A stretch of DNA of 64,000 nucleotides from Salinirubrum litoreum (GTDB lineage: Archaea > Halobacteriota > Halobacteria > Halobacteriales > Haloferacaceae). The position numbers and the translations under genes were made by a program. The stretch is from NCBI RefSeq assembly GCF_020567425.1, contig NZ_JAJCVJ010000001.1, forward strand, positions 1,054,001 through 1,118,000. The letters run 5' to 3'. Of the stretch, positions 20,579 to 63,377 are shown piece by piece. Position 1 is the stretch's first letter. Every line of letters begins with the position of its first letter. The notes under the pieces were generated by a model, which was not told where the DNA came from, did no database searches, and was given only the letters and a program-made list of their open reading frames with translations.

Positions 20579-21648
20579 GCGAGGCCACGGAGCGAGACCT
20601 CGTCGCCGACCTCTTGGAGGGTGACCACCGCGCGCTGGCCCGGACGATCACAAAGATCGAGAATCGGAGTCCCGGCTACCGCGATCTTGTCTCCGCACTC
20701 CACGAACACACCGGGAACGCGGCGGTCGTCGGCATCACCGGGAGTCCCGGCGCGGGCAAGTCGACGCTCGTGGACAAACTCGCGGTCACCTACCGGGAGC
20801 GCGGCCTGACGGTCGGCGTCATCGCGGTCGATCCCTCCTCGCCGTACACCGGCGGGTCGGTGCTGGGCGACCGCATCCGGATGGCCTCGAACGTCGGCGA
20901 CATGGACGTGTTCTTCCGGTCGATGTCCGCCAGAGGGACGCTCGGCGGCCTCTCGACGGCGACCGGTGACGCGATCAAGGCACTCGACGCGTTCGGCAAG
21001 GACGTGATCCTCGTGGAGACGGTCGGCGCGGGACAGAACGAGGTGGACGTGGTGAAGACCGCAGACTCCGTGGTCGTCCTCGTCCAACCGGGGTCGGGCG
21101 ACGACGTGCAGATGCTGAAGGCCGGCATCCTGGAGATCGGCGACGTGTTCGTCGTCAACAAAGCCGACATGGACGGCGCGGACAGGACCGTCTCGGAACT
21201 GGAGGAGATGATCCACATGCGGGACGACCCGACCGCGAAGTTGAACACCGGTCACCACGCCCAACCGACCGTGGCAGACGCGGGGTCCGGTGGCGACGAG
21301 GCGACCGACGCGGACGGAGACGGGACGGCCTCGTGGACGCCGGCAGTCGTCGAGACCGTGGCGACCACCGGCGAGGGCGTCGAGGCGTTGATCGAGACGC
21401 TCGCCGACCACGACGAGTACCTCGACGAGTCGGGCGAGCGCCGGCGGAAGGCCCGGACACGCGCGGCAGAGGAGATCAGGACGCTCCTGCGGAACGACAC
21501 CGCCGACCTGCTGGAACGGGAACTCGCCCGTCACGGCGGCGTCGAGTCGCTGGCCGCGTCGGTGGTCGACCGCGAGACCGACCCCTACTCTGTCGCCGAC
21601 CGGGTCGTCGAACCGCTGCGAGACTGTCTCGACGCGCGCGACGAGTGA
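20575..21648 (+). CDS. meaB: Methylmalonyl-CoA mutase-associated GTPase MeaB
   Basis: The 357-residue G3E GTPase has a P-loop at residues 56-64 (GSPGAGKST), VDPSSPYTGGSVLGDRIRM, ETVGAGQNEVDV and NKADMDGA. MeaB gates cobalamin loading of and protects methylmalonyl-CoA mutase. Between the NKAD motif and the C-terminal dimerisation helices there is an acidic low-complexity insert (GSGGDEATDADGDGT, residues near 240) that typical MeaB lacks. The ATGA overlap with the mutase subunit gene couples translation. The stop codon falls inside the first unit of an 18-bp tandem repeat. Confidence 0.93.
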   Translation: MSEATERDLVADLLEGDHRALARTITKIENRSPGYRDLVSALHEHTGNAAVVGITGSPGAGKSTLVDKLAVTYRERGLTVGVIAVDPSSPYTGGSVLGDRIRMASNVGDMDVFFRSMSARGTLGGLSTATGDAIKALDAFGKDVILVETVGAGQNEVDVVKTADSVVVLVQPGSGDDVQMLKAGILEIGDVFVVNKADMDGADRTVSELEEMIHMRDDPTAKLNTGHHAQPTVADAGSGGDEATDADGDGTASWTPAVVETVATTGEGVEALIETLADHDEYLDESGERRRKARTRAAEEIRTLLRNDTADLLERELARHGGVESLAASVVDRETDPYSVADRVVEPLRDCLDARDE

Positions 21649-21770
21649 GTGGTCCGGGACCTGTGAGTGGTCCGGGCCCTGTGAGTGGTCCGGGCCCTGT
21701 GAGTGGTCCGGGCCCTGTGAGTGGTCCGGGCCCTGTGAGTGGTCCGGGGCCTGCGACTGGTCCGGGACCT
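21645..21770. repeat. Seven tandem 18-bp repeats at the 3' end of meaB
   Basis: Seven consecutive 18-bp units (21645-21662, then every 18 bp to 21770) match GTGAGTGGTCCGGGCCCT. Units 2-5 are identical, units 1 and 6 differ at one base, and unit 7 differs at three. The meaB TGA lies in unit 1. In another frame the array reads (SGPGPV)n, and on the minus strand (GPGPLT)n or DHSQGP repeats; none has a credible start. It ends 14 bp before the 3' end of the next, convergent gene, so it sits in a convergent intergenic spacer. Confidence 0.95.
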
Positions 21771-21783
21771 GCCGGCCCACGAG

Positions 21784-46507: not shown

Positions 46508-47422
46508 ATGGAACGCGGGGCGATCCCACTCGACGAGTTGGCCGGCGGCTTCGACCTGCAAGCGACCGTCGAGAGCGGCCAGAGCTACCTCTGGCGGCGC
46601 GGCGACGGTCAGATGTACGAGACGATGTCGGCTCACGGCGGCGACCACTGGTACGAGACGGTCGTCCCCGAACTCGATCCAGTGGGCAACGACCGCGCCG
46701 TAGTCCGGGTGCGCCAGCACGACGGAGTGCTGGAGTGGGAGTCGTCGACCGACGCGGTCCCGATTCTCACGCACCTCCTGCGACTGGACGACGACCTCGA
46801 CGCCGTCCTCGGGGCGACGACCGACGATCCCCTGCTGGCGGACGCCTACGACACCTACCGGGGGATGCGACTCGTCCGCGACCCGCCCTTCGCCTGCCTG
46901 ATCTCCTTCATCTGTTCGGCACAGATGCGCGTCTCGCGCATCCACGGGATGCAGGTCTCGCTGGCAGAGGAATACGGCGATCGGGTCTCGTTCGACGGCG
47001 AGACGTACCACGCCTTCCCGACGCCGGACCAACTCGCGGCCCGCACCGAGGGCGAACTACGTGACCTCTCGCTGGGCTACCGCGCGCCGTACGTCCAGCG
47101 CACCGCCGAGATGGTCGCCGACGGCGAGGCACATCCGAGTGAGGCACAGGAGTTGGCGTACGAGGACGCCCGCGAGTACCTCACGCAGTTCGTCGGCGTC
47201 GGCGACAAGGTGGCCGACTGCGTCCTGCTCTTCTCGCTGGGCTTCCTCGAAGCGGTCCCGCTGGACACGTGGATCAGAACCGCCATCGCCGACCACTACC
47301 CCGACTGCGACCGGGGCAACTACACCGAGACCTCGCGGGCGATCCGCGAGCAGTTCGGCGGCGAGTACGCCGGTTACGCGCAGACCTACGTCTTTTACTT
47401 CTTGCGGGCTGGCGGGGAGTGA
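46508..47422 (+). CDS. 8-oxoguanine DNA glycosylase/AP lyase family (HhH-GPD)
   Basis: The 304-residue protein has an N-terminal TBP-like domain (FDLQATVESGQSYLWRR, as in OGG1), CLISFICSAQMRVSRIHGMQ, and the helix-hairpin-helix-GPD motif LTQFVGVGDKVADCVLLFSL with catalytic Lys234 and Asp253 in PLDTWI. It should remove 8-oxoguanine and cut the DNA strand. An AlkA-like specificity is less likely because the HhH lysine is present. ATG 46508 starts at MERGAIPLDE. Confidence 0.87.
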   Translation: MERGAIPLDELAGGFDLQATVESGQSYLWRRGDGQMYETMSAHGGDHWYETVVPELDPVGNDRAVVRVRQHDGVLEWESSTDAVPILTHLLRLDDDLDAVLGATTDDPLLADAYDTYRGMRLVRDPPFACLISFICSAQMRVSRIHGMQVSLAEEYGDRVSFDGETYHAFPTPDQLAARTEGELRDLSLGYRAPYVQRTAEMVADGEAHPSEAQELAYEDAREYLTQFVGVGDKVADCVLLFSLGFLEAVPLDTWIRTAIADHYPDCDRGNYTETSRAIREQFGGEYAGYAQTYVFYFLRAGGE

Positions 47423-47551
47423 CCCCCACCACCGGCGACGAGAGCAGGTGGAACGCACCACTACAGCCGTGGTAATCGGTTCGCGTGATCCGGCGGCAGG
47501 GGCTCCGAAACACACGAATCGAGGGGTTCGGGCCAAGTTTGATACGTTCCC

Positions 47552-48004
47552 ATGGCCTACTATCACGTACCCATGGATTGCAGAGTCGTCGTCGAAGCGG
47601 CCGTTCCGGTCTACGACGTGGCGAACGAGGACGAAGCCATCCGGATCGCCATCTCGAAGACGGGAGAGATGTTGAATCCCGACCTCAACTACGTCGAGAT
47701 CGACATGGGTTCCCGGACCTCGCCGAGTGGTGATGAACTACCGCCAGCGTTCGTCGCGGCCGACGAGGCGTTGGTCGCCCTCGAACTGGAGATGACCGTG
47801 TTCAACGTCGAACGCCACGAGCACGCCAGTCGGATCGCCCGCAAGGAGATCGGGCAACGACTGGAGAACATCCCGCTGAAGGTCCTCGAAGTCGAAGACG
47901 TCCCCGATGAGGACGACTCCGAGGACACGACCGCAGACACCGAGACCGACGAGGACGAGGACGACGATCTCCTCCCCGAGTTCGACGATCTCGTGGAAGA
48001 CTGA
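47552..48004 (+). CDS. UPF0212 (DUF555) family protein lacking the usual CPxCG motif
   Basis: The 150-residue protein follows the UPF0212 pattern (DEAIRIAISKTGEMLNPDL; FVAADEALVALELEMTVFNV; HEHASRIARKEIGQRLENIP), but where typical members have a CPxCG zinc half-site it reads SPSGDELPP (residues 57-65). The C-terminus is a very acidic tail (DEDDSEDTTADTETDEDED). Function of the family is unknown. It is followed by an intrinsic-terminator-like hairpin. Confidence 0.85.
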   Translation: MAYYHVPMDCRVVVEAAVPVYDVANEDEAIRIAISKTGEMLNPDLNYVEIDMGSRTSPSGDELPPAFVAADEALVALELEMTVFNVERHEHASRIARKEIGQRLENIPLKVLEVEDVPDEDDSEDTTADTETDEDEDDDLLPEFDDLVED

Positions 48005-48005
48005 C

Positions 48006-48028
48006 ACCGACGCTGTCGGTCCTTTTTT
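48006..48028 (+). terminator. Hairpin plus T6 terminator after the UPF0212 gene
   Basis: ACCGAC at 48006-48011 and GTCGGT at 48015-48020 form a perfect 6-bp stem with a 3-nt loop, followed by CC and six T (48023-48028). It begins two bases after the stop. Archaeal termination mainly needs the T-tract, so the hairpin is a bonus. Confidence 0.7.
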
Positions 48029-48168
48029 GTCGTCCACCGATCGGTAGTGACAGGTTCCTGTCGCCGGGGACGGTCGTCGGTCGTCGCCGGGGCGCCGTAG
48101 TCGGCGAGTGCCGGTGCAGTCGCTGGCGGGTGTAGGGTCGTCGGAGGAGTCGTCGCGTCCGCAGAGAG

Positions 48169-48408
48169 TCAGTCGGCTTTCGGGGCGACGGCTTCGGTCT
48201 CACCTTCCGCGACCGATCCGGTGATGCCCTTCGCCAGTTTGAAAACGGCGGCTTTGTGGTCTGTCTTCGACTTGTGGATCGAAGTCGGTCGAACACCGAG
48301 TTCGTTGTACTCGGTCAGGTCGATGTCTTCGTCGTCTGTCCATGCCTCACACTGCTCGTGTACCTCGGCAAGCAGGCCGTGAAGGTGAATGAGCTCCTGC
48401 TTCTTCAT
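48169..48408 (-). CDS. UPF0058 family protein
   Basis: From ATG 48408 the 79-residue protein starts MKKQELIHLHGLLAEVHEQC, the UPF0058 pattern, followed by YNELGVRPTSIHKSKTDHKA AVFKLAKGI. Family function is unknown; the protein is probably a small helical cytosolic protein. The longer TTG start in the open frame adds only two residues and is less likely. The 244 bp between it and aIF2-beta (divergent) include AT-rich promoter sequence at about 48430-48470. Confidence 0.85.
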   Translation of the reverse strand: MKKQELIHLHGLLAEVHEQCEAWTDDEDIDLTEYNELGVRPTSIHKSKTDHKAAVFKLAKGITGSVAEGETEAVAPKAD

Positions 48409-48652
48409 GAGCAACAGAGCGTTGCGACTGAAGGGTTATATTACTATCTTGAGTGTCGTTAACACGCGTCTATTCACAACCGAGCGTCAGATCGACAATC
48501 CTACAGGGTCGTTCGTTCGGGACGCTACCGACCCGTCGCGGGGGAAGCCCGCCCCTACTGTCAGTTCGTCGTCAGTCGTAGTGACACGTGTCCGTTCGCG
48601 GACAGCCACCGGAGTCGTGAAGTTTTACTCCGGCGACCGACTGCCACCGGGT

Positions 48653-49060
48653 ATGGACTACGACGACCAACTCGACAGAGCGATCTCGGAGACGCCCGAC
48701 ATCGAGGAGACGGGGTCCCGTTTCGAGGTGCCCGATCCCGAGATCCGGGCCGAGGGGAACGTCACGGTCTACGAGAACTTCCAGGCGACGGTGGACCGAC
48801 TGGACCGCGACGAGCAACACGTGATGAAGTTCCTCCAGAACGAACTCGGGACGAGCGCACACATCGACGAGAGCGGCCGTGCCCGGTTCACCGGCGACTT
48901 CAAACAGTCCCGCGTCGCCGCGGCCATCGAGGAGTACACCGACGCTTTCGTCGTCTGCCCGGAGTGTGGCCTGCCGGACACGCGATTGCAGGACGAACAG
49001 GGGGCGACGGTGCTGAAGTGTACGGCCTGTGGTGCGCTGTCCCCGACCGGTAGGGAATGA
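48653..49060 (+). CDS. Translation initiation factor IF-2 subunit beta
   Basis: The 135-residue aIF2-beta has the central alpha/beta domain (QHVMKFLQNELGTSAHIDES; FTGDFKQSRVAAAIEEYTDA) and a C-terminal zinc ribbon with Cys102, Cys105, Cys123 and Cys126 (VCPECGLPDTR; LKCTACGALSPTG). It is part of the heterotrimeric aIF2 that brings initiator tRNA to the ribosome. The stop codon falls inside a hairpin that is part of a 38-bp tandem duplication. Confidence 0.95.
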   Translation: MDYDDQLDRAISETPDIEETGSRFEVPDPEIRAEGNVTVYENFQATVDRLDRDEQHVMKFLQNELGTSAHIDESGRARFTGDFKQSRVAAAIEEYTDAFVVCPECGLPDTRLQDEQGATVLKCTACGALSPTGRE

Positions 49061-49116
49061 CCGGCCGGGACGCTCTCTCCCCGACCGGTAGCGAGTGACC
49101 GGTCGGGACGCGGCGA
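49041..49116. repeat. 38-bp tandem duplication with a hairpin in each copy, at the end of aIF2-beta
   Basis: Copies at 49041-49078 and 49079-49116. Each contains an inverted repeat: CCCGACCGGT/ACCGGCCGGG in copy 1 (49042-49069, one G-T type mismatch) and CCCGACCGGT/ACCGGTCGGG in copy 2 (49080-49107, perfect 10-bp stem, 8-nt loop). Copy 1 encodes the protein end SPTGRE and stop; copy 2 still reads SPTGSE and stop in a different frame. It sits between convergent genes and may terminate transcription. Confidence 0.85.
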
Positions 49117-49134
49117 CAGTCACCAGTGAGCGAC

Positions 49135-49470
49135 TCAGTCGTCGTCTGCGGCCGCCTCGCTCACGCCGGCGGCGTCCGACTCGATGCTCGGCGGGTACTT
49201 CCCGCGATCCAACTTCAGGTCGCTGGCGGGCCGAGCCATGCACGTCAGCGCGTACTTCTCGGCTTCCTCCTCCGTGAGGCCCCGTTTCTTGACGATCTCC
49301 TGGTGGACCTCGCCCTCCAGAATCTCCGCAGAACAGGCGAGACACATCCCGACGCGACAGGAGTACTCCTGTGCGATCCCCTCCCGGATGCAGGCTTTGA
49401 GGATCGGCTCTTTGTCGGACACCTGGATCGTCTCGCCGGTGCCGACGAACTCGACGGTGTACTCGGTCAT
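49135..49470 (-). CDS. [2Fe-2S] ferredoxin, plant/halobacterial type
   Basis: From ATG 49470 the 111-residue protein has the ligands Cys38-x4-Cys43-x2-Cys46 and Cys77 (YSCRVGMCLACSAEI; YALTCMARPAS) of plant-type [2Fe-2S] ferredoxins. It is an electron carrier for many enzymes (oxidoreductases, hydroxylases). The C-terminal tail is acidic (IESDAAGVSEAAADDD). Convergent with aIF2-beta. The longer open frame to 49497 is less likely as a start. Confidence 0.92.
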   Translation of the reverse strand: MTEYTVEFVGTGETIQVSDKEPILKACIREGIAQEYSCRVGMCLACSAEILEGEVHQEIVKKRGLTEEEAEKYALTCMARPASDLKLDRGKYPPSIESDAAGVSEAAADDD

Positions 49471-49581
49471 GCTTCGGCGTTCGGCGACTCCCGACAAAAA
49501 GCTTCTATTCGACTCCCGTCCTCCCGGGAAGGACGCAATCGGGGATAAAGAGTTTTGCCCCGTCGTCGGTCAGATAGGGCA

Positions 49582-50949
49582 ATGACGACCCACGAGTACG
49601 ACGCCGTTATCGTCGGCGCGGGAACCGCCGGCTGTTACGCCGGTGCGACGATGGCCCGCGAGGGACTCGACGTCGTCGTCGTCGAGCGAAAGACCGCCGA
49701 GGAGGCCGGTCACATCGCCTGCGGCGACGCGCTGAAGGGTGCCGACGCCTTCCCCGAGGCGATCCCGAAGTCCAAGATCGAGTCGGCGTTCACCAACACC
49801 GGCGTCGACCACGGCCGCTTCGAGATTCCCTCACACGACACCGTCTTGGAGATTCCGGTGCCCGGCGAACTCGCGGTCATCGACCGCCACGAGTACGGCC
49901 GGAAGATAATCGCCGGCGCGGAGGAGGTGGGCGTCGAGTTCCACTACGACACCGTCGTCCAGGACGTGACCCAGGAGGACGGCCGCGTGACCGGCGTGAA
50001 GGCGATCCGGAAGGGTGACCCCGTCGAGTACGACGCCGAGGTCACCATCGACGGCGCGGGCGCGCTGTCGATCCTGCAGGACAAGGCCGACCTCTCCGAG
50101 GCGACCTTCGACACGAACGTCTCCTACTCGCAGTTCTGTTCGGCCTACCGCGAGGTCGTCGAGGTCGAGGAACCGGTCGAGTGGTCCGACGCCCTCGTCT
50201 TCAAGCCGACCGAGCGCGCGGCGGGCTACCTCTGGTACTTCCCGCGCACCGAGACGGAGATCAACGCCGGTCTCGGCTTCCAGATGAACGAGGAACCGAT
50301 GAAACTGGTCGACGACCTCAAACGCGACCTCCAGACGCGCCCCGAGTTCGAGGGCGCGGAGGTGAAGGACAAACTCGGCGCGGCCCTCCCGACGCGGCGA
50401 CCCTACGACTCGGCGGTCGCCCCCGGCTTCATCGCGGCCGGCGACTCGGCGGGCCACGTCAACCCGACGACCGGCGGGGGCATCGCCGGGGCCGCCTACG
50501 CCGGCAAGTACGCGGGCGAGCAGGCCGTCCGGGCAATCGAACAGGACGACGTGAGCGAGGACGCCCTCTGGCACTACAACGAGCGCGTGATGGACCACTT
50601 CGGCGGCCGGTACGCCGGACTGGACGTCTACAACATCCTCTCGACCGCCGTCGACGTGGACGACCTGATGGGCCTGCTGGCGGCCCTGCCGGGCGAGAAA
50701 CTGGCCGAGGCGCTCTACTCCGGGCAGACCTCGATGGGACCGAAACTGGTTCTGCAGACTGCCGTCGAGAGCTTCGGCTACTGGGACGTGATCTACAAGT
50801 TCTACCGGACCAAGCGCCTCGCAGAGCAGTTGATCGACCACTACGGCCGGTATCCGGACCGGCCCGAGTCGCTGTCGAACTGGCAACGAGAGCGCGACAG
50901 CCTGATGGACCGCATCTACGAGCAGACCGGCGCGGACGCGAAGTACTGA
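49582..50949 (+). CDS. Geranylgeranyl reductase family flavoprotein (archaeal lipid saturation)
   Basis: The 455-residue protein has the FAD Rossmann motif AVIVGAGTAGCYAGATMARE, the family C-(x)3-C like HIACGDALKGADAF, GYLWYFPRTETEINAGLGFQ, AAGDSAGHVNPTTGGGIAGA (shown in short) and the late CYS-free helical end. It would saturate the geranylgeranyl chains of archaeal ether lipids with FADH2 from a ferredoxin or NADPH donor; the [2Fe-2S] ferredoxin next door (divergent) is a tempting partner. ATG 49582 starts at MTTHEYDAV. Confidence 0.88.
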   Translation: MTTHEYDAVIVGAGTAGCYAGATMAREGLDVVVVERKTAEEAGHIACGDALKGADAFPEAIPKSKIESAFTNTGVDHGRFEIPSHDTVLEIPVPGELAVIDRHEYGRKIIAGAEEVGVEFHYDTVVQDVTQEDGRVTGVKAIRKGDPVEYDAEVTIDGAGALSILQDKADLSEATFDTNVSYSQFCSAYREVVEVEEPVEWSDALVFKPTERAAGYLWYFPRTETEINAGLGFQMNEEPMKLVDDLKRDLQTRPEFEGAEVKDKLGAALPTRRPYDSAVAPGFIAAGDSAGHVNPTTGGGIAGAAYAGKYAGEQAVRAIEQDDVSEDALWHYNERVMDHFGGRYAGLDVYNILSTAVDVDDLMGLLAALPGEKLAEALYSGQTSMGPKLVLQTAVESFGYWDVIYKFYRTKRLAEQLIDHYGRYPDRPESLSNWQRERDSLMDRIYEQTGADAKY

Positions 50950-50991
50950 CTGCGCCGGCCTGCGCCTGCGTCACTCTCTCTCTCGGCTGTC

Positions 50992-51441
50992 TCACCGGTC
51001 GCCGACCAGCAGCGCGACCAACCCGACCGAGATCAGCGTGAAGGCGACGAGCGACAGGCGTGGGATGGTCAGCAGGCCACCGAGCAGGGTGTACTGGATC
51101 GACGTACAGCCACCGCCGACGGAACAGGTCCCGCCGACAGACGGCGATATCTGGAGAATCGTGTGGTAGCCCGCGACGACGAGGCCGAACAGCGAGAGGG
51201 GGAGTGCCGTCCGGTAGACGGTCGCTCGCTCGTCGAGACTCGCCACGCCGAGGATCACGACCAACGGGTACATCAGGATGCGCTGGTACCAGCAGAGTTC
51301 ACACGGGACGAGGCCGAGTCCGAGGCTGAAGTAGAGACTCCCGGCGGTCGCGACCGTCGCGACCAGTGTCGTCAGTGCGAGGAGGGTCCGGACCGGAACG
51401 GAGCGTCCGAGGACGCCGAGGCGGCCGTGGGTCGTGGACAC
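50992..51441 (-). CDS. dsbB: Disulfide bond formation protein DsbB
   Basis: From a GTG at 51441 the 149-residue protein has four helices and both Cys pairs of DsbB: Cys47-Glu-Leu-Cys50 (VPCELCWYQRILMYPL) in the first loop and Cys106/Cys112 (GGTCSVGGGCTS) in the second. It re-oxidises a DsbA-like thiol oxidase outside the membrane through a quinone. The longer TTG start (51450) adds three residues. A TlpA/DsbA partner is not in the window. Confidence 0.85.
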   Translation of the reverse strand: MSTTHGRLGVLGRSVPVRTLLALTTLVATVATAGSLYFSLGLGLVPCELCWYQRILMYPLVVILGVASLDERATVYRTALPLSLFGLVVAGYHTILQISPSVGGTCSVGGGCTSIQYTLLGGLLTIPRLSLVAFTLISVGLVALLVGDR

Positions 51442-62279: not shown

Positions 62280-63377
62280 TCAGTTCTCGAAGTCGGTCAC
62301 GACCTCGACACCGTCGGTCCCGTAGTCGGTCATCGCGGCGAGTCGATCTGAGACGTCCGACAGCGCGACCTCTCGGCTCACCAGTGCGCCGGGGTCGACG
62401 TCCGACCGACCGACGAACCGCAGGAGATCGTCGGCCCGCGTCGGCGGCATCCCGCGCGAACCGAGGACGTCGACGGACTGCATGGCGATCCGGTCGACCG
62501 GGAGCGCGATCTCCCCGCGTTCCGCGTCGGTCGTCAACCCGAGTTGGACGTGCTGGCCCCGGCGGCGGAGAGAGGCGACCGAGTTCCGGCAGGTCTCCGC
62601 GACGCCCAGCGCGTCCACCGAGACGTGGGCCCCGCCGTCCGTCTCGGCGCGGACGGCGGCCGGGACACCCGCCGCTGGGTCGCCGGGCGTCGCGTCCCCG
62701 GCGACCGCGCTGGCGTCGACGACCACCTCAGCGCCGAGGTCGCGGGCGCGGGCCAGTTTCCCGTCGGCGATGTCGACCGCGACGACGCGAGCGCCGAGGG
62801 CGTCACCGATCTGGACCGCCGAGAGGCCGACGCCGCCACAGCCGTGGACCGCGAGCCAGTCACCCGGCCCGAGGTCGGCGCGGGCCGACAGTGCGTGGAA
62901 GGCGGTCATGAACCGACAGCCCAGTGCGGCCACGTCGCGGGGCGACACGCCATCTGGCAGGCGAATTGCGTTGTAGTCGGCGCTCGGCAGGTGGACCTGT
63001 TCGGCGAAGGCCCCCTGTGCCGCCTGCTCGAAGCCGAGTGCCAACCCGTCGGAACAGACGTTGCCGTGACCGGTCCGGCACTGCGGACAGGTGCCGTCCC
63101 CGAGGTTGAACGGGACCGCCACGCGGTCGCCTGCCCGGAGCGTCTCGACCTGCTCGCCGACCGCGAGCACCTCCCCCGCCGGTTCGTGCCCGAGAATCTG
63201 CCCCGGCGACACCCGGTCGTCGGCCCACTCCCCGTGGCCCTGCCAGGCGTGCCAGTCAGACCGACAGACGCCGCAGGCGTCGACGCGGACGACTGCCCCG
63301 TCCCGAGCAGGGTCCGGTGCCGGCACGTCTTCGATCGCGAGCGGTTCGCCGTACTCGTGGAGGATAGCGGCACGCAT
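62280..63377 (-). CDS. Zinc-dependent alcohol dehydrogenase (MDR family)
   Basis: The 365-residue protein has the catalytic zinc residues Cys38 (GVCRSDWH), His64 and Glu65 (LGHEPAG) and the cofactor motif VHGCGGVGLSAVQIGDALGA. The structural-zinc lobe reads DGTCPQCRTGHGNVC: the last three Cys (97, 100 and 108) are there but the first position is Asp94, so the second metal site is altered. Start at 63377 (MRAAILHEYG). Substrate unknown; related to alcohol, polyol and sorbitol dehydrogenases. Confidence 0.88.
   Translation of the reverse strand: MRAAILHEYGEPLAIEDVPAPDPARDGAVVRVDACGVCRSDWHAWQGHGEWADDRVSPGQILGHEPAGEVLAVGEQVETLRAGDRVAVPFNLGDGTCPQCRTGHGNVCSDGLALGFEQAAQGAFAEQVHLPSADYNAIRLPDGVSPRDVAALGCRFMTAFHALSARADLGPGDWLAVHGCGGVGLSAVQIGDALGARVVAVDIADGKLARARDLGAEVVVDASAVAGDATPGDPAAGVPAAVRAETDGGAHVSVDALGVAETCRNSVASLRRRGQHVQLGLTTDAERGEIALPVDRIAMQSVDVLGSRGMPPTRADDLLRFVGRSDVDPGALVSREVALSDVSDRLAAMTDYGTDGVEVVTDFEN

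Follow-up and report, generated by a model that had tools for sequence, protein, structure and literature searches.

The aIF2-beta gene of Salinirubrum litoreum ends in a short tandem duplication with a hairpin in each copy, and the question is whether this structure serves to end transcription or is a trace of how the sequence was copied. The window, the whole stretch of DNA that was analysed, comprises 64,000 nt of contig NZ_JAJCVJ010000001.1 (1,054,001-1,118,000, forward strand), and coordinates are given as window positions. The aIF2-beta gene is found on the + strand at 48653-49060, with an ATG at 48653 and a TGA stop at 49058-49060 (Pfam eIF-5_eIF-2B, E 3.5e-36, the query having been started one codon upstream of this ATG). 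A gap of 74 bp (49061-49134) separates it from a convergent 2Fe-2S ferredoxin gene on the - strand at 49135-49470 (Pfam Fer2, E 2e-12).

A unit of 38 nt is present in two gapless, head-to-tail copies, 49034-49071 and 49072-49109 on the + strand. In this register, which is the best one, the copies are identical at 33 of 38 positions and differ at unit positions 3, 6, 21, 24 and 32. The original prediction had placed a 38-bp tandem duplication at 49041-49116; the repeat is real, but that interval is shifted by 7 nt relative to the best register and gives an identity of 30/38. Copy 1 consists of the last 8 codons of aIF2-beta, the stop codon and 11 nt, and its coding part (49034-49060) is the genuine end of the gene, ALSPTGRE-stop. 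Copy 2 is situated entirely 3' of the true stop, out of frame, and reads ALSPTGSE-stop. The further claims that the 3' end of a core gene had been copied and that copy 2 keeps the last codons and the stop (as SPTGSE) both hold, copy 2 spelling LSPTGSE-stop. The 11 nt downstream of the stop are also common to both copies, with one difference. Because the original stop precedes copy 2, the aIF2-beta protein is unchanged.

The duplication is not due to chance, since no equally strong tandem match was obtained in nine runs on second-order Markov versions of three sampled segments (three runs per segment). Nor is it fresh, given the five differences between the copies, and these differences also make an echo of the assembly unlikely. 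The unit sequence is found at one place only in the genome (E<=0.001). The repeat is a confirmed and ordinary tandem duplication, specific to this lineage, and the two hairpins resemble each other by descent.

The comparison with relatives that had been proposed together with the prediction shows a single-copy state. The 107 loci available were all from outside the genus of S. litoreum, included some species twice and had flanks of 1-2 kb, some of them incomplete; aIF2-beta identity was 51-75% in 58 loci. After removal of 12 loci that were duplicates or too short, 95 distinct aIF2-beta 3' ends remained, and in this test, run on the relatives only, none of the 95 carried a tandem copy. A stem of at least 8 bp was found at four of the 95 ends, in all four with a sequence different from the hairpin described here, while a 9-bp stem of another sequence is situated directly 3' of the stop in the nearest relative found, which speaks for a role of stems. 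A conserved terminator was rejected because the 3' ends of the relatives are different.

The gene order upstream is common to many relatives, with UPF0058 in 97, DUF555 in 71 and the gene at 46508-47422, which we take to be a DNA glycosylase, in 56 of the 107 loci. The downstream order differs. In 86 of the 95 distinct loci the convergent gene is not the ferredoxin but a small zinc-ribbon gene, at a distance of 7-149 nt from where the aIF2-beta match ends. Among the nine remaining loci the convergent gene is TFB-like in five (L056-L058, L071 and L075), and neither gene is present in four (L041, L048, L083 and L159); the names zinc-ribbon and TFB are our own reading of the sequences. The best match to the zinc-ribbon gene in this genome is at C1:350708-350884, about 750 kb away, with a weaker match (49%) on C2. 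It adjoins a TFB-like gene at 351020-352006, the pair covering C1:350705-352006. No ferredoxin was found beside aIF2-beta within the 1-2 kb flanks of the 107 loci, and the best ferredoxin match in 15 relatives had no other gene of the 40-60 kb part of the window within about 1.5 kb. Since the downstream order of the relatives differs and no ferredoxin was found beside aIF2-beta in those loci, the 74-bp gap is a lineage-specific junction in the synteny.

Duplications of this kind are common in the genome. The sample used was 864 kb, the window plus 800 kb (contig C1, 1-400000 and 1120001-1520000), with 845 genes from a simple codon-usage caller, for which reason the category of gaps includes some missed genes. 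Gapless tandem arrays with a period of 24-90 and an identity of at least 84% numbered 65 after merging (74 before), that is, 64 besides the one at aIF2-beta. By main location, 12 belonged to convergent gaps (60 per 100 kb), 27 to same-direction gaps (38 per 100 kb), nine to divergent gaps (22 per 100 kb) and 17 to coding DNA (2.3 per 100 kb). Convergent gaps exceed coding DNA about 25-fold in array density. Eleven of the 65 arrays, the aIF2-beta array included, span a stop codon. In ten relatives, sampled with 2 x 20 kb each, there were 18 arrays in 400 kb, whereas 800 kb of this genome held 63. Duplications of this type are thus ordinary among haloarchaea, with a somewhat higher frequency in this genome. 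Around aIF2-beta the loci of relatives, in two sets with partly overlapping species, held four arrays in 250 kb of one set and two in 97 kb of the other. The array shares with the intergenic tandem duplications of prokaryotes, as excerpted from a satellite survey (PMC6749651), the head-to-tail order, the length of a few dozen bases and the mainly non-coding location, but it crosses a stop codon and contains a perfect 10-bp hairpin. Among the 48 mainly non-coding arrays, it shares the possession of a stem of at least 8 bp with just one. A literature search, judged by titles and the openings of abstracts, gave no description of such a duplication. Taken alone the repeat matters little, as the protein is untouched and the array is one of many.

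The repeat is likely to be the result of one short tandem duplication, by slippage or microhomology repair, and probably near-neutral. GCG begins copy 1 and also follows copy 2 (49110-49112, + strand). Because of this triplet at both borders, a single-copy ancestor may have held the unit, with the last codons, the stop and the small hairpin of aIF2-beta, between two GCG triplets, although three bases are weak evidence for such a microhomology. Replication slippage or microhomology-mediated repair between the triplets would then have duplicated the unit once. The original stop would still have come first, leaving the protein intact and copy 2 to be inherited as 3'-untranslated DNA, and the copies would later have diverged to the present five differences. 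The event would be one of many in the gaps of this genome and was probably close to neutral. Slowing of RNA polymerase or protection of mRNA ends by the hairpins is possible, although the evidence does not support selection for such an effect.

The distribution of the differences is not entirely what a freely drifting copy would give. All four differences in the coding part are at third codon positions, for which the probability is (1/3)^4 = 0.012 if they were random, and this odd bias counts against free drift. One of the five differences is within a stem arm, where it preserves the pairing of the - strand, and the other four are not; this pattern is not significant (binomial, approximately 0.16). 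The commoner codons CTC, AGC and GAG are in copy 2, but so is the rare GCT (3% of Ala codons), in place of the GCG of copy 1. Copy 1 uses AGG, which makes up 2% of Arg codons, and GAA, which makes up 23% of Glu codons. The aIF2-beta genes of several relatives end in GAG. With four sites there is no more than a hint that the dead copy 2 possibly keeps part of an older tail while the live copy 1 has changed.

The copy 1 hairpin (49042-49069) has a 10-bp stem with one mispair, A.C on the + strand and G.U on the - strand, and spans the stop codon; its energy is -16.5 kcal/mol (z -1.9). The perfect 10-bp stem that had been predicted in copy 2 is present at 49080-49107, with arms at 49080-49089 and 49098-49107 and a loop of 8 nt. 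It folds with -21.3 kcal/mol, with z -3.7 for the 34 nt of 49076-49109 and -2.3 when six extra bases are included (40 nt). A perfect stem is not rare by itself, as 10-bp stems without a mispair are found at three further places in the window. The stem pattern CGACCGGT-N8-ACCGGTCG was found with at most one mismatch in both copies and at one other place in the genome. With at most two mismatches 32 places were found, including C1:232014, with unlike loops, and one with a reversed-pattern control; the 32 places probably reflect the composition of a GC-rich genome. A dispersed palindromic (REP-like) repeat was rejected, the unit being at one place at E<=0.001 and the stem pattern nearly unique at up to one mismatch. 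Plasmid relatives of the repeat were limited to two weak matches, both with E 0.3, and Rfam covariance models gave no match up to E 1 in the region 48900-49300.

A rival explanation is that, after a rearrangement had set the ferredoxin gene tail-to-tail with aIF2-beta, two GC-rich hairpins came to end both transcripts without T stretches, as a two-way terminator or barrier doubled for strength. Besides the perfect stem of copy 2, this agrees with the - strand, on which both stems are complete with one G.U and the entire 106-nt stretch folds with -57.1 kcal/mol (z -3.7), an energy that none of 200 shuffles reached. On the + strand the same stretch is little better than shuffles (z -1.8), and ribosomes would open hairpin 1 because it spans the stop codon. 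The aIF2-beta end does have a stable stem-loop, as a hairpin terminator would. No T run longer than 2 is found within 150 nt of either stop on either strand, which excludes only the T-stretch type, since the same is true of 520 of 844 called genes, and it therefore counts weakly against the barrier. T runs of at least 4 follow 108 of 844 genes compared with 9 of 844 controls from coding ends. A scan of 47500-51000 with a bacterial-type terminator consensus gave three matches, none of them in the gap. In Haloferax volcanii, as excerpted from PMC7237163, the hairpin S12 gave 59% termination, in favour of the barrier, and the T stretch T5C gave 95%, against it. The two cases share a hairpin near a gene end, but S12 was within a coding region and the aIF2-beta gap lacks a T stretch. 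The hairpin-cluster terminators of bacteria, in the excerpt of PMC8355165, likewise have adjacent hairpins at the gene end, whereas the present ones are from an archaeon and are copies of each other. The genome-wide counts point in both directions. Among 95 convergent gaps of 30-400 nt, the aIF2-beta/ferredoxin gap included in each count, stems of at least 8, 9 and 10 bp were found in 10, 6 and 3, respectively, and in five dinucleotide shuffles in 2-7, 1-2 and 0-1. In raw density, convergent gaps hold 120 stems of at least 9 bp per 100 kb and the other gaps 48. For long stems, divergent gaps gave 6/136 (shuffles 2-3) and same-direction gaps 6/328 (shuffles 1-6). Against the barrier, stems of at least 9 bp whose centre is no more than 25 nt from a called stop show no enrichment (12.5 per 100 kb, five in 40 kb, compared with 17.2 in coding DNA), and TTTT is absent from 9 of 10 convergent pairs with a stem of at least 8 bp and from 118 of 133 without one, which is no contrast. 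Nor are tandem units stem-rich in general. Stems of at least 6 bp are found in the first unit of 3 of the 48 mainly non-coding arrays (shuffle mean 2.6) and in 7 of 48 entire arrays (mean 10.3), so that hairpin units as a rule among arrays have no support; stems of 6-7 bp do not exceed the shuffles, and there is a slight excess at 9 bp or more, with two such arrays (shuffle mean 0.27, maximum 2 in 100 runs). This excess and the modest one of long stems in convergent gaps count against near-neutrality. With no T run longer than 2, a hairpin that is not conserved and no enrichment of stems near stops, the original prediction that terminator function is likely was too strong; it is possible, but not likely on the present evidence, and the two-way barrier as an explanation of the repeat is unlikely. 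If the excess of arrays and stems in convergent gaps is functional, termination by hairpins only could be tested in haloarchaeal genes that lack T stretches.

The repeat could also be the scar of a rearrangement or of recombination with a diverged aIF2-beta, in which case copy 2 would be the end of another allele that stayed behind when this gene was joined to the ferredoxin side. The junction in synteny, with the zinc-ribbon gene as the usual neighbour, fits this, as do the restriction of coding-part differences to third positions and the commoner CTC, AGC and GAG of copy 2 beside the rare AGG of copy 1, though copy 2 has the rare GCT and four sites are few. The copies are however also alike in the 11 nt 3' of the stop, and a 3-bp microhomology marks the end of the unit, the outcome expected of simple slippage. 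A blastn search of the two 400-kb segments revealed no remnant of the aIF2-beta tail next to the zinc-ribbon gene at its new place, the sole match below E 0.001 being within the second aIF2-beta-like gene. Such a scar is distinctly unlikely. A combined reading, in which a hairpin doubled after the rearrangement was kept as a two-way barrier without T stretches and duplications in convergent gaps are a general way of building barriers, is very improbable. A single, near-neutral duplication by slippage or microhomology repair is the explanation that we infer.

Some further features were observed. The second aIF2-beta-domain protein of this genome is encoded at C1:1512371-1512766 and is 44% identical; many genomes of the family likewise appear to have two matches. 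At 62632-62706, inside a called gene that we read as alcohol-dehydrogenase-like, there is another pair of perfect 10-bp hairpins with 18 nt between them, probably due to chance in GC-rich coding DNA. Other tandem arrays in the window are near 3.5, 28.0 and 28.5 kb. At 21633-21776 about seven copies of the 18-nt unit GTGAGTGGTCCGGGCCCT fill a convergent gap; this array starts at the end of a gene for what we take to be a MeaB-like GTPase and spans its stop, as the aIF2-beta array does.
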